Part shown: positions 50,528-57,078 of the stretch, in pieces
How the letters are laid out: the number at the start of each line of letters is the position of its first letter
Numbering within the stretch: position 1 is the first letter of the stretch
NCBI GenBank assembly: GCA_027064085.1
Contig: JAMOQH010000188.1
Location: 1-64,000 of the forward strand
Length of the DNA: 64,000 bases
Reading direction: 5' to 3'
From: a bacterium
GTDB taxonomy: Bacteria > UBP6 > JAFGXH01
Translations under genes and position numbers: made by a program
Notes under the pieces: model-generated
Told to the model about the DNA's origin: nothing
Seen by the model: only the letters and a program-made list of their open reading frames with translations
Database searches by the model: none

Positions 50528-53026
50528 ATGAGTGATATAGGGAAAATGCTAAGTGAAATTGATAATCTTAAGAATAAACTAGATAAGAAATACTCTAAGA
50601 AGATAACTATAATGTTTACTGATATTAAAGACTCTACTGTATATTTTGAAAAACATGGAGATATGAGTGGGCGAATGATGGTTGAAAAACATAACACACT
50701 ACTATTTCCTATTGTAAGTAAATATGGTGGAGTTGTAATTAAAACAATTGGTGATGCGATTATGGCTAAATATGATTTTGCCGTAAATGGAGTTAAGGCT
50801 GCAATTGAAATGCAAAGAACTCTTAAAGAGTACAATAAAACTGCAAGAGATAAAATTAGAATTAGGATTGGTTTACATACAGGCAAGGCAATTGTTGAAG
50901 AAAATGATGTATTTGGTGATTCTGTTAACTTAGCTGCTAGAATTGAAGCTGGAACAAAAGCTGAATTTATAACAATTTCTAAAAATACATTAGAAGAAAT
51001 TTCTGCATATAAAAACATTAAAGTTATACCATTAGGTGTTGTTAAATACAAAGGAAAAGAAGAAGAGATTGAAACTTATTCTGTTTTATGGGATAGTTCA
51101 ATTTTAGAAAAAAGAGTTAGAGGTGAAAATACCTGGTTACACGATAGCCTACTGATAAAAGTAACTCTTGAAAGCAATAAAATTAAAGTAAGATACAGAT
51201 ACTATTTAAATGAAAATAAAAAAGAAGAAATTTTTGAAAATATTGATAAAAGATTAATGTCTAAATTTTTAGAATATTTAGAACAACTTCGTTCATCAAC
51301 ACTACAAAAAAATTCTACAAAATTTGATTTTGAAAATTTTAAAAAGGAAAGTCAAAAAATATATAAAGAATTATTTTCAAGTAGTATTAATGAAATTTTT
51401 AATAAATCAGACTTGAAATATTTAGTTATAGATACAGATAGAAATTTTTCTTTTTTGCCTTTTGGTCTTTTACATGATGGAACAAATTTTTTAGGGTTAA
51501 AATATCCAATTTTTAGGCTAATAGACCATTTCAATAAAGTAGATGCTCAATATACATATTTTACATTTTTAGATTATACTCTTGATGAAGAGATAGAACA
51601 AGAGCATGAGTTTTCAATTATAAATAGCATATTTAAAGAAAATAATCTTGAATTATATGCTCCTAAAAAAGAATATGCTAAATTAGATGATTTAATAAAA
51701 ACATTAAATAGTATAGGGAAAAAATCAACTCATTTGCATTTTGCTTTTCATAATTTATTTTCAATAAATTTTGATGATATAAAATTTAAGAATACCTCAA
51801 TACAGTATAGAGATATAATAAAATCAAACTATAAATTAAGGTATATAATTGCAAATTCATGCAAAACAATACCAATTTTAACAAAGTTCATAGGTAAAGA
51901 TAATAATTTCTTATCATTTTTAAATGATGCAAATATAAAAATATATTTAGGTAATTTTTTTAATATTTATGATGAAGTTGGATTATATTTTAGTGAAATA
52001 TTTTATAGTTATATGCTTAAAGGCTATAGTTATCCAGAAGCCTTGTTTAAGTCTAAACTAAAATTAAGAGATAAATATGGTGAAAAAAGTTTAATATGGG
52101 CATCTTATGCTATTTTTGCAGATTCTGTTGAAACAGTTCTTGAAGCTATGATTGAAAATATAATAAATGAGGCTAGAGAAACAGTCACTGAGTTAAAAGA
52201 GCCTGAAAAAATTCATAATAAAGAAAAAATCAGGGGGGGGGCTGAAGTAGTTATTGACTCTTCTGTTTCTCTAAATACGAGCAAGAGTATTAACAGATAT
52301 TTATTTCTAGTAATTTTCCTGATTTTAATTTCTATAGTAGGTCTTTATATATTAAAACATAATGAAGGTGGTGGTGTAGGTGGAAAATTACCCATTACTA
52401 TGGATAAAAAAGAAATAAATAAAGAATCTGATAAAGTAATTAGAGCTGAGCCACACAATAGTGTGGTTCAGAAAAACGGAGATAATAAAAATAATGAAAA
52501 TAAGCTTCTAATGTATAAAGGAGTGCAACAAAGTGATGTTGTTAAGGATAATAATGTTGCAATAAAAAAGAATAATAATATAGCTGTAGATAAATCTTTA
52601 AATCGTTTGGTGGTTTTGTATTTTGATAATAATTCAAATAATAAGAAACTAAATCCTTTGAGAAAAGCTTTGGCAGATATGCTTATTGCTGATATTAGTG
52701 ATATAAAAAATGTAAATGTTGTGGACAGGGAAAAACTTGAAGATATAATAAGAGAGTTAAATTTATCAAAAACCAAGTATATAAAGCGTTCATCGGCCCT
52801 TAAAATAGGAAGAATGCTTAGTGCTAAATATATTATGGTTGGTTCTTTTATAGACCCTCCAATAGAAGGATTACCATTGAGGATAGATGCTAAGATAATT
52901 GATGTTGAAACAAGTGAAATAAAATGGGCAAAGGGTGTTACGGGTGATAAAAGGAAACTATATAAAATGAAAGATAAATTGATGGAAAAATTTAGAAAAA
53001 GTAAATTTTTAAAGGGGTTAAAATAA
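50528..53026 (+). CDS. Class III adenylate cyclase - CHAT (caspase-like) - TM - CsgG/TolB-like fusion protein
   Basis: Cyclase: ITIMFTDIKDSTVYF, GVVIKTIGDAIMAKY, VFGDSVNLAARIEAG (Lys and Asp at adenine-specifying positions). CHAT-like: LHFAFHN...LRYIIANSCKT...SLIWASYAIFAD. TM: YLFLVIFLILISIVGLYIL. CsgG-like: NRLVVLYFDNNS...VVDREKLEDIIRELNLS...LGxxLSAKYIMVGSF-type segment. Confidence 0.8.
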   Translation: MSDIGKMLSEIDNLKNKLDKKYSKKITIMFTDIKDSTVYFEKHGDMSGRMMVEKHNTLLFPIVSKYGGVVIKTIGDAIMAKYDFAVNGVKAAIEMQRTLKEYNKTARDKIRIRIGLHTGKAIVEENDVFGDSVNLAARIEAGTKAEFITISKNTLEEISAYKNIKVIPLGVVKYKGKEEEIETYSVLWDSSILEKRVRGENTWLHDSLLIKVTLESNKIKVRYRYYLNENKKEEIFENIDKRLMSKFLEYLEQLRSSTLQKNSTKFDFENFKKESQKIYKELFSSSINEIFNKSDLKYLVIDTDRNFSFLPFGLLHDGTNFLGLKYPIFRLIDHFNKVDAQYTYFTFLDYTLDEEIEQEHEFSIINSIFKENNLELYAPKKEYAKLDDLIKTLNSIGKKSTHLHFAFHNLFSINFDDIKFKNTSIQYRDIIKSNYKLRYIIANSCKTIPILTKFIGKDNNFLSFLNDANIKIYLGNFFNIYDEVGLYFSEIFYSYMLKGYSYPEALFKSKLKLRDKYGEKSLIWASYAIFADSVETVLEAMIENIINEARETVTELKEPEKIHNKEKIRGGAEVVIDSSVSLNTSKSINRYLFLVIFLILISIVGLYILKHNEGGGVGGKLPITMDKKEINKESDKVIRAEPHNSVVQKNGDNKNNENKLLMYKGVQQSDVVKDNNVAIKKNNNIAVDKSLNRLVVLYFDNNSNNKKLNPLRKALADMLIADISDIKNVNVVDREKLEDIIRELNLSKTKYIKRSSALKIGRMLSAKYIMVGSFIDPPIEGLPLRIDAKIIDVETSEIKWAKGVTGDKRKLYKMKDKLMEKFRKSKFLKGLK
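52233..52241 (+). repeat. G9 homopolymer inside the cyclase-CHAT gene, between CHAT and TM
   Basis: ATC AGG GGG GGG GCT read in frame at 9 G. 10 G gives AGG GGG GGG GGC TGA; 8 G gives AGG GGG GGG CTG AAG TAG. Confidence 0.95.
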
Positions 53027-53270: not shown

Positions 53271-54392
53271 ATGGCAAAAGATATAAACAAAAAACAATTC
53301 GATGAAACAACAAAGCTAAAACTAGATATATTCGGAGAATGTTTTGAAGAATGGCTACCAGTTTTTATTCATGATAGATACACTTCAGATATTTATATTT
53401 TTGACTTTTTTGCAGGAAGTGGTAAAGATATTGAAGATAACTTAGGAAGTCCTTTGATACTTCTAGATAAAGCTAAAGGAAACAAACTCCAATATTGTTC
53501 AAATACAAAAAAAGAAATAAATTTCATATTTAATGAAGCTAAACCTAGAAAAAGTAAAAAACTTGAAGAAAATGTAATAAATTATATTGAAGAATGTAAA
53601 AGTAAAAATAATTGTGAGACATGTTCATATAATTATGAAATTAAAAACTTTGAATTTAAAGATATTTTAAATGATGCAAATATAAAATCTATTTTAAAAA
53701 ATAAAGAATTTGGAAAATTTGTTATTTTAGACCAATATGGTTTTAAAGAGGTAGATGATGATATATTTAGGCAATTAATATCTTTTCCTAAAGCTGATTT
53801 TATATTTTTTATTACATCTTCATCTATAAATAGATTTAAAAAACATCCAAATATTATAAAATATATAGATACATCAAAAATTGAATTTGATGACCCTAAA
53901 GAAATACATAGAGCTGTAACAAAATATTTTAGAGACTTGATTCCTAAAGGTAAGGAGTATTATCTTCATAATTTTTCTATTAAGAAAGAAAATAGTGGTA
54001 ATTATTATGGATTAATATTTGGTTCTAATCATACTTTAGGAATGGAAAAATTTCTAAAAGTTTGCTGGAAACATGATAAGCTTTCAGGTGAAGCAAACTA
54101 TAATATTGATGATAACTTTGAAAAGGGGACTTTATTTTATGAAAAACAAAATATAAAAAAAGATCTTATAAGTAAAGAAATAGAAAATGAAATTTTATCA
54201 GGAAGTATAACTAGTAATATTGATGGTTTAAAGTATGCTATGCTAAAAGGTTGTGAACCAAAATTATTTACAGAAGTTGTTAAAAAACTTGAAAAAAACA
54301 ATAAAATAGAAAGGCTTGGAGATAAAAACTATAGTTCTACAAATATACATAGAGTAAAAAAATATAAAATAGGGATAAAAGATGAAACATAA
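53271..54392 (+). CDS. tcmP: Three-Cys-motif partner protein TcmP
   Basis: KLDIFGECFEEWLPVFIHDRYTSDIYIFDFFAGSGKDIEDNLGSPLILLDKA; FVILDQYGFKEVDDDIF. Paired with the adjacent DUF5131 gene. Confidence 0.85.
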   Translation: MAKDINKKQFDETTKLKLDIFGECFEEWLPVFIHDRYTSDIYIFDFFAGSGKDIEDNLGSPLILLDKAKGNKLQYCSNTKKEINFIFNEAKPRKSKKLEENVINYIEECKSKNNCETCSYNYEIKNFEFKDILNDANIKSILKNKEFGKFVILDQYGFKEVDDDIFRQLISFPKADFIFFITSSSINRFKKHPNIIKYIDTSKIEFDDPKEIHRAVTKYFRDLIPKGKEYYLHNFSIKKENSGNYYGLIFGSNHTLGMEKFLKVCWKHDKLSGEANYNIDDNFEKGTLFYEKQNIKKDLISKEIENEILSGSITSNIDGLKYAMLKGCEPKLFTEVVKKLEKNNKIERLGDKNYSSTNIHRVKKYKIGIKDET

Positions 54393-55131
54393 AATAGAAT
54401 GGACAGAAAAAACATGGAATCCTTCAGCAGGTTGTACTAAAATGAGCTCTGGTTGTGAAAATTGTTATGCAGAGGTAATGGCGAATAGATTACAAGCTAT
54501 GAGTGTAAAGGGGTATGAAAATGGCTTTGAATTCAATATTGTTCCTGATAGATTAAATGACCCTTTAAAAAGAAAAAAACCAACTGTTTATTTCGTTAAT
54601 TCAATGAGTGATATATTTCATAAAGAAATGCCTCTTGATTATTTAAATAAAATTTTTGATATTATTGAAAAAACTCCTCAACATACATATCAAATTTTAA
54701 CTAAAAGAGCAGATAGAATGTTTGAGTATTTTGAAAATAAAAAAATAGCAAAAAATATATGGCTTGGTGTTACTGTTGAAAATAAAAAGGATGGAATACC
54801 AAGAATAGATAAATTAAGAAATCTTAAAGCTAGTGTATTATTTCTCTCTGTTGAACCATTACTTGAAGATTTAGGTAAGATAAACTTAAAAAATATTAAC
54901 TGGGTTATTGTTGGTGGAGAGAGCGGGCATAAAGCTAGGCCAATGGACGAAACTTGGGTATTAAATATTAAAGAACAATGTAAAGCTAGTAATGTTGCAT
55001 TTTTCTTTAAACAATGGGGAACTTGGGGAGCTGATAAAGTAAAAAGAAACAAAAAAGATAATGGAAAAGTATTAAAAGGTAAGATTTGGCAAGAATATCC
55101 TGAATTTATAAAAAAACAATATACAATATAA
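54382..55131 (+). CDS. Phage Gp37/Gp68-family (DUF5131) three-Cys-motif protein
   Basis: IEWTEKTWNPSAGCTKMSSGCENCYAEVMANRL, VYFVNSMSDIFH, YQILTKRADRM, NIWLGVTVENKKDGIPRIDKLR, NWVIVGGESGHKARPMDETWV, FFFKQWGTWG. Overlaps the tcmP 3' end by 11 nt. Confidence 0.9.
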   Translation: MKHKIEWTEKTWNPSAGCTKMSSGCENCYAEVMANRLQAMSVKGYENGFEFNIVPDRLNDPLKRKKPTVYFVNSMSDIFHKEMPLDYLNKIFDIIEKTPQHTYQILTKRADRMFEYFENKKIAKNIWLGVTVENKKDGIPRIDKLRNLKASVLFLSVEPLLEDLGKINLKNINWVIVGGESGHKARPMDETWVLNIKEQCKASNVAFFFKQWGTWGADKVKRNKKDNGKVLKGKIWQEYPEFIKKQYTI

Positions 55132-55140
55132 GGATTAATC

Positions 55141-55660
55141 ATGAGTGAAATAAGAGCAGGTTTAATTGAGTCTAAATTAAAAATATATGTTTTTTTGGGG
55201 GGGGGAGAAAATGATACAAAATAAAAAAACAAAAAAATATCAATTGAATCTATCAATGTCAGCTTTAATAGATCAAGAAAAATATGAAAAATGGCTTAAA
55301 AATAAGGCAAGAACTCATTTAAAGCGTGACAAAAAACGAGGAAACATAAGTTCAACATATGAGTCATATAGAGTTGCAATACATGAAGCTGTTATTAATT
55401 CAAATGGTAAAGACGCTTATACTGGTGAAAATTTAGATTGGTCTTTGATAAATGAATATAATAATAAGGATTCTAAAAAATATGGAAGAGATTATAAAAA
55501 GAGGTTTGCTCTATTACCAACTATTGATCATGTTGGAGATGGAAAGGGGAAAGCTAATTTTAAGATTTGTTCTTGGCGGACAAATGATGCGAAAAATGAT
55601 TTATCCTATGAAATATTTTTAGAATTATGTAATAAAATTGTAAATTATTCAAAGAATTAA
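55141..55660 (+). CDS. HNH-endonuclease-like protein; apparent native start at 55141 is out of frame with the body across a G9 tract (as sequenced, translatable from 55187 or 55211)
   Basis: Body: DAYTGENLDWSLI...FALLPTIDHVGDGKGKANFKICSWRTNDAKNDLSYEIF (HNH-like spacing of YTG, DH, C..N..K). ATG 55141 has SD AAGGA and reads MSEIRAGLIESKLKIYVFLGGGENDTK* at 9 G, but MSEIRAGLIESKLKIYVFLGGEKMIQNKKTKKYQLN... at 8 G. Confidence 0.6.
55197..55205 (+). repeat. G9 homopolymer at the 5' end of the HNH-like gene (preceded by T7)
   Basis: GTTTTTTTGGGGGGGGGAGAAAATG read directly. Confidence 0.95.
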
Positions 55661-55777: not shown

Positions 55778-57078
55778 ATAAAACCTAATACTTTCGGAAA
55801 CAGATTTAAAATAACAACTTTTGGAGAAAGCCATTCTGTTGCAATGGGTGTTTTAATAGAAGGTATTAAGCCTAATGTTAAAATAAGTATTAGTGATATT
55901 CAAAATTTACTTGATAAAAGGAAGCCAAAGGGAAAATTAACAACTAAAAGAAAAGAAAATGATGAGCTTGTAATTTTATCAGGTGTTTTTGAAGGAAAAA
56001 CACTTGGAAGTCCTATTGTTGCTATTGTTTATAATAAAGATGCTAAATCAAAGGATTATACCGATATTAAAGATGTGTTTAGGCCGTCTCATGCTGATTT
56101 TACATTTTTTAAAAAGTATGGAATAAGAGATTATCGTGGTGGTGGTAGAAGTAGTGGCCGTGAAACTGTGAGTAGGGTAATAGCAGGAGCTGTGGCAATT
56201 TCATTTTTAAGTGACAAGTACAATATAGAAATAATCTCAAAAATAACTCAAATTGGTCCTTTTAAAACTGATAAATGGGACAAAACTAGTGATAATCTTC
56301 CATTTGCCGATGAAACTCAACTTAAAGATATTGAAAAATATATTAATTCACTCCATGGGGATAGCATTGGAGCAATCATAGAATCCCGAATTGAAAATTT
56401 ACCACTAGGCATAGGGGAACCCGTTTTTGAAAAATTAGAAGCGAATATTGCAAAAGCAGTTTTAAGTATTGGTGCAACCAAGGGGATAGAATTTGGAGAT
56501 GGTTTTGATTTTGCAAATAAAAAGGGAAGTGAAGTAAATGACCAGATGGATAAAAGAGGTTTTTATCAAATCATTCAGGTGGAATACTGGGAGGAATATC
56601 AAATGGAGAAACGGTTGTATTTAGAACAGTGATAAAACCTACTCCATCAATATCGAAAGAACAAAAAACAGTTAATGAAAATAATCAAGAAGTAAAAATA
56701 AAGATAAATGGACGACATGACCCTTGTATTGCAATAAGGGTAATACCCGTAATAAACAGTATGGTTGCATTAAGTTTACTAGATTTAATAGGTGATAGCC
56801 GTTTAGTAGAACCAAAAGAGAAACTTGAAGTATTAAGAGATGATATCTCGGAAATAGATAAAAATATTTTTTTATTGCTTGATGAACGATTTAATATAGT
56901 AAAAAAAATTATAAAATATAAGAAAAAGAAAAATATAGCTATAGAAAATAAAAATATAGAACAAAATTTAATAAATAAAATACAAAAATTAGAACTAAAA
57001 AATTTAACAAATGACTTCATTAAAAAATTATATAATAAAATTTTTAATGAATCTAAAAGGATACAGAAAGATGATTAA
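55778..57078 (+). pseudogene. aroC: Chorismate synthase fused to an AroQ-type chorismate mutase domain; ATA in the start position and one frameshift
   Basis: Frame read from ATA 55778 (SD AGGAGG 55767-55772): IKPNTFGNRFKITTFGESHSVAMGVLIEG...FRPSHADFTFFKKYGIRDYRGGGRSSGRETVSRVIAGAVA...; frame shifts at T5 56560-56564; continues [29 protein letters not shown]...GRHDPCIAIRVIPVINSMVALSLLD, then LEVLRDDISEIDKNIFLLLDERFNIVKKIIKYKKKKNIAIEN...IFNESKRIQ (AroQ). Confidence 0.85.

Follow-up and report, generated by a model that had tools for sequence, protein, structure and literature searches.

Does the run of nine G in the gene of a four-part cyclase-CHAT protein act as a phase switch, which by single-base slippage would detach the cyclase and CHAT parts from the membrane, as a preliminary description held likely, or is it a run that slips without having been selected to do so? 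The question was examined in a window of 64,000 nucleotides (positions 1 to 64,000 of the forward strand of contig JAMOQH010000188.1, assembly GCA_027064085.1) from a bacterium of the lineage Bacteria; UBP6; JAFGXH01, whose genome (3.65 Mb, 27% GC) is represented by a metagenome-like assembly of 195 contigs. With a probability of about 0.62, we favour the second answer: the run would have expanded recently in a linker that tolerates it, would slip mildly, and would be a passive frameshift hot spot rather than a selected switch.

The cyclase-CHAT protein and the reading frames at the tract

The gene is intact and its product consists of four parts (Table 1), of which the cyclase domain also matches solved cyclases, e.g. 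Ma1120. The CHAT match was obtained when the middle region was scanned alone (there was none with the full-length protein), and the orthologous protein gave no CHAT match of its own when scanned; H408 and C445, located in the CHAT-like motifs HFAFHN and ANSCKT, respectively, and both conserved in the orthologue, are, judging from these motifs, the likely catalytic pair. The TM helix was predicted from hydropathy, with a maximum of 2.9 at aa 591-609, and in the topology that we infer, the cyclase and CHAT parts are cytoplasmic and the CsgG-like part lies outside. An AlphaFold model of the protein (pLDDT 31.5, three sequences in the input) was too poor for use. The protein resembles bacterial class III cyclase and CHAT multi-domain signalling proteins in that the cyclase match is far over the Pfam cut-off and the CHAT match just over it, but differs from them in the combination of cyclase, CHAT, TM and CsgG, whose full span occurs, among the 118 relatives searched, only in genomes of its own family. 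The literature search made here gave no paper on a cyclase-CHAT-CsgG combination. An assignment of the cyclase to Pycsar was not adopted, given that the Pycsar cyclase profiles match weakly (29 bits). On contig C32 of the same genome, there is a paralogue (cyclase domain, 51%) which has no G run and in which, in place of CHAT and CsgG, the cyclase domain is followed by a TM-like segment and, at the C-terminus, by two repeats that resemble each other.

Table 1 Features of the cyclase-CHAT gene (window positions) and further long G tracts of the genome (by contig).
Feature	Position	Strand	Basis or remark
ORF, 832 aa, cyclase - CHAT - linker with G9 - TM - CsgG/LpoB-like	50528-53026	+	intact, open at 9 G
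Class III adenylate/guanylate cyclase catalytic domain, aa 21-185	50588-51082	+	PF00211, 76.7 bits vs cut-off 21.9, E = 2 × 10−21
CHAT (caspase-like) region, aa 358-530	51599-52117	+	PF12770, 25.9 bits vs cut-off 24
G9 tract, codons AGG GGG GGG GCT = R569 G570 G571 A572	52233-52241	+	unconserved linker
TGA, stop after gain of one G (572 aa)	52243-52245	+	sequence, frame simulation
TAG, stop after loss of one G (573 aa)	52248-52250	+	sequence, frame simulation
Single predicted TM helix, about aa 588-609	52289-52354	+	only strong hydrophobic segment (hydropathy)
CsgG/LpoB-like domain, aa 693-775 (LpoB match to 801)	52604-52852	+	Pfam
M50B peptidase, G9	contig C12		in frame, near C-terminus
MlaE permease, G9	contig C65		in frame, 35 codons ahead of end
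AAA+ protein, G9	contig C141		in frame
Beta-helix secreted protein, G12	contig C175		in frame
G9 between kinase-like and histidine ammonia-lyase-like ORFs	contig C141		non-coding; putative names, read from translations
G10 tract	contig C179:7277-7286	minus	broken frame

The G9 tract was confirmed exactly where the preliminary description had placed it, in an ORF that is open at nine G, 38 aa past the PF12770 match and 17-20 aa ahead of the TM helix; because the domain matches and the TM segment flank the tract, it falls into the CHAT-TM linker. The consequences predicted for a slip likewise held when the frames were simulated for tract lengths of 6 to 12 G. The frame is open at 6, 9 and 12 G (831, 832 and 833 aa, respectively); at 10 G, the TGA follows directly (572 aa), and at 8 G, the TAG comes after two codons (573 aa), so that a single slip ends the protein between CHAT and TM, and at 7 and 11 G, the ends are at 571 aa (TGA) and 574 aa (TAG). 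Thus, near-identical truncated proteins would result from any single or double slip.

The closeness of the two off-frame stops had been put forward as a sign of a switch, an argument that carries little weight when compared with the rest of the genome. At 25% of the coding sites, both off-frames meet a stop within 5 codons, and a pattern as tight as that of the G9 site occurs at about 6%; in the shifted frames, a stop follows after a median of 4-6 codons, and at 99.6% of sites both are closed within 60 codons. Because DNA with 27% GC yields early stops anyway, the tight stops at G9 add little. At the RNA level, hairpin pairing is possible at the tract (z = −1.65), and 13 of 200 shuffles were as good, that is, the structure is not significant when compared with these 200 shuffles.

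Long G runs across the genome

Pattern searches of both strands for runs of exact length yielded 99 runs of G6, 22 of G7, 5 of G8, 6 of G9, one of G10, none of G11 and one of G12. The step ratio from G6 to G8 is about 0.23, and extrapolation gives about 1.5 runs of at least nine G compared with the 8 seen (Poisson, p about 2 × 10−4); the counts break above length 8, with no fall from G8 to G9. Two of these 8 tracts, both G9, lie in the window (52233-52241 and 55197-55205), which also contains 8 overlapping G7 matches where 0.28 are expected from dinucleotides. When synonymous codons were permuted (130,339 codons), about 0.3 coding runs of at least nine G were expected per genome, compared with four in-frame G9 and one G12; runs were also counted on 444 kb of stretches, from contigs that were partly picked for holding tracts, which biases the long-run counts there. 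Taken against these expectations, long G runs are in excess through slippage, selection or both. Runs of nine G are rare in such AT-rich DNA, as the preliminary description says, but they are more numerous than chance would give, and the tract is unique neither in the genome nor in the window.

The genes that hold such tracts are of different kinds. The secreted protein of C179 and the beta-helix protein of C175 fit the surface, defence or other variable genes that would be expected to hold switching tracts, whereas the MlaE permease, the M50B peptidase and the AAA+ protein do not, and switching in the MlaE and M50B peptidase genes is implausible. In MlaE relatives, the same Gly-Gly-Ala is spelled GGT GGA GCA, so that the G run of MlaE is likewise a local event. 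At the G10 tract of C179, a frame of 41 codons with a signal-peptide-like start, MKLLLLLFSFSLVAQ, stops just past the tract, and a frame of 1378 codons for a secreted protein continues in another phase; tract lengths of 8 and 11 would join the two, and in a sister genome, a single unbroken frame, signal peptide included, encodes the homologue (30-34% identity). Judged from these frames, C179 appears to carry, in the OFF state, the gene of a secreted protein of about 1400 aa that is subject to phase variation, a plain inactivating mutation being the alternative; as a contingency candidate, its tract ranks above the G9 of the cyclase-CHAT gene. The survey thus shows a genome with housekeeping tracts and one good switch candidate.

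Several further observations concern the runs themselves. The context A-G9-CTGA recurs in three of the six G9 runs (those of the cyclase in the window, MlaE on C65 and the AAA+ protein on C141), all encoding Arg-Gly-Gly-Ala, and at all three, gain of one G produces an immediate TGA; no common origin of these three sites is visible, and the genes are unrelated. Contig C175 (5.9 kb, 33% GC), with its G12 and a beta-helix protein with a secretion-tail-like C-terminus, is possibly foreign to the bin; leaving it aside, 7 runs of at least nine G remain. The sister genome G001 has G9 runs as well, in genes for NhaA-like antiporter and methyltransferase-like proteins. A run of about 50 G on a contig of another relative (G010:C147:24055-24104) is probably an assembly artefact.

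Orthologues and the downstream neighbourhood

Among the 118 relatives searched, none of which is a second genome of the same genus, full-span orthologues were found only in G001 and G002, which belong to the same family and to another genus. The orthologue of G001 (contig C353) is full length, with 46% identity, that of G002 is split across two contigs, and both have the same four-part architecture; two of the three orthologue contigs also occur as metagenome-assembled records. Two further scans of genome contigs gave, in the first case, nothing and, in the second, only the orthologue records of G001 and G002 together with distant CsgG matches. The CHAT-TM linker varies strongly in length and sequence between the orthologues, and the linkers of the two relatives, ETKKRETLNKNNELSKDND... 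and VIKKRESPNENSKLSIEN..., contain neither Gly-Gly nor a G run; on the orthologue contigs of both genomes, there is no run of G6 or longer. The linker is free to change, so that a G run could arise there harmlessly. According to the preliminary description, orthologues with Gly-Gly in mixed codons and no G run would speak against a switch; the result comes close to this, although at 46% identity the comparison is too distant to speak for the species. Neither of the two sister-genus orthologues shows a sign that the run is ancestral, and both are too distant to date its origin.

Downstream, the ORF at 53271-54392 encodes TcmP (PADLOC PDC-M30A) and the ORF at 54382-55131 a DUF5131 protein (PDC-M30B), a candidate phage-defence pair that, together with a small ORF ending at 55660, makes up a candidate defence cassette. 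This small unannotated ORF (55211-55660) has plasmid homologues, one of which, in Paraburkholderia sabiae, stands immediately behind the brxL gene in a BREX locus. The second G9 of the window (55197-55205), about 3 kb downstream of the first, has T7 before it and AGAAAATG after it; it overlaps a short frame from 55141, which at nine G is out of phase with the small ORF. A role of this tract as a frameshift switch of the small ORF is not favoured: since the plasmid homologues begin at about the ATG past the tract, the second G9 lies in the leader, or Shine-Dalgarno region, of that ORF. Further on, aroC (chorismate synthase, 55780-57078) has ATA at its proper start, with no ATG, GTG or TTG, a frameshift near 56560-56575, GESHS in place of the usual GESHG, and a remainder fused to a chorismate mutase domain; by these features, the gene looks decayed.

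Origin and possible function of the G9 tract

Starting from the directly observed sequence, frames, domains, rarity and absence from the sister-genus orthologues, we envisage the following course. The G9 would be a recent in-frame run in a fast-changing, tolerant linker, probably grown by ordinary slippage together with synonymous drift, and would make the cyclase-CHAT gene a mild frameshift hot spot. A slip of one or two bases would end the protein at 571-574 aa, just ahead of the TM helix, and could leave a soluble cyclase-CHAT product; such truncation would most likely be of the loss type, a mutation tolerated when at low frequency, and not a selected ON/OFF device. A passive hot spot is favoured because the genome-wide excess of runs of at least nine G fits a general slippage effect, and because the orthologues lack the run, G9 also occurs in ordinary genes, MMR is intact (MutS, with 864.6 bits, and MutL are both present at full length) and early off-frame stops are usual. 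Against it, the strong excess over the codon-usage expectation could reflect selection on some tracts, the C179 frames suggest that at least one tract of the organism may switch, and nine G is about the average length of the known meningococcal contingency tracts (PMC4085013).

Published figures make G9 a plausible yet not certain switch. In MMR-proficient meningococcus, model tracts switch at median rates of 2.4 × 10−8 (G8 to G9) and 1.2 × 10−7 (G10 to G9), with rates of 10−2 to 10−5 cited for other loci, strains and species (PMC4085013), and surveys of Campylobacter set the tract cut-off at 7 G/C upward (PMC6321876). The literature search made here gave no paper on phase variation by poly-G tracts in uncultured genomes. 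With the poly-G/C tracts of Campylobacter, Neisseria and Helicobacter (PMC6321876, PMC4085013 and PMC2823697), the G9 shares a pure in-frame run of known switching length, truncation at both +1 and −1 and an ON state at multiples of three; it differs in that it is absent in relatives and known here from one assembled length, in that its gene is not a surface, LPS, flagellar or restriction gene, and in that there are just about 8 such runs in 3.65 Mb, some of them in housekeeping genes. In Helicobacter canadensis, where homopolymer tracts are reported to switch C-termini (PMC2823697), a slip likewise changes the C-terminal part and leaves the N-terminal domains intact, but at G9 the alternative frames add 0-2 residues, and the C-terminus is lost rather than exchanged. 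Of the properties of contingency loci, the G9 has a tract of switching length within an ORF, a product altered by gain and loss of one unit (an effect to be expected of almost every tract in coding DNA), and over-representation, but the tract is not kept in the two sister-genus orthologues.

That the tract is a selected contingency locus, at which reversible slippage toggles between a sensor anchored in the membrane at 9 G and, at 8 or 10 G, a protein of 572-573 aa that is soluble or inactive, appears unlikely to us, even though it retains some weight because the C179 G10 looks like an OFF allele. Its position between CHAT and TM, the stops within two codons in both off-frames, the rarity of G9, the known biology of poly-G contingency (PMC6321876) and the G10, probably in the OFF state, that this genome carries in the gene of a secreted protein argue for such a locus, and the preliminary description was right about the anatomy and the effect of a slip; its further step, to a likely phase switch, goes beyond the sequence facts, and against it stand the lack of conservation in the sister genus, equal tracts in housekeeping genes, intact MMR and the nature of the gene, which belongs to intracellular signalling and is not a typical surface or restriction gene. 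We also doubt, more strongly, that AGG GGG GGG GCT was chosen by drift, purely by chance and with slippage not raised at all: nothing forbids the peptide R-G-G-A, with GGG accounting for 8% of the Gly codons and AGG for 15% of the Arg codons, but 4-6 coding runs of at least nine G are seen where about 0.3 are expected per genome, and the counts do not drop from length 8 to 9.

It is very unlikely that the true homopolymer length is other than nine through an assembly or sequencing error. The metagenome-like assembly and the frameshifted aroC 4 kb downstream would be compatible with an error, but the assembled length precisely keeps the 832-aa ORF and its conserved C-terminal domain open, whereas errors more often break frames, and aroC also lacks a standard start codon, which points to a decaying gene rather than a read error. 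Least probable of all is non-genetic slippage, in which a single allele would give both forms through slips of RNA polymerase or of the ribosome on the G run; such a mechanism would use a slippery homopolymer, a stop close by in both alternative frames and possible hairpin pairing, but the fold is not clearly stronger than those of the shuffles and the tract is not conserved.

It is improbable that an uncultured AT-rich lineage here uses a few poly-G contingency tracts, one of which toggles a cyclase-CHAT protease between membrane-anchored and soluble forms; if true, this would be phase variation of second-messenger signalling rather than of a surface structure. Should the tract switch, the population would contain both anchored and soluble cyclase-CHAT, and contingency loci would extend to internal signalling, here within an uncultured group. 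If it does not switch, the locus calls for caution: in AT-rich DNA, phase variation is only weakly indicated by a G9 whose off-frame stops are tidy, because such stops are to be expected and G9 is also found in housekeeping genes.
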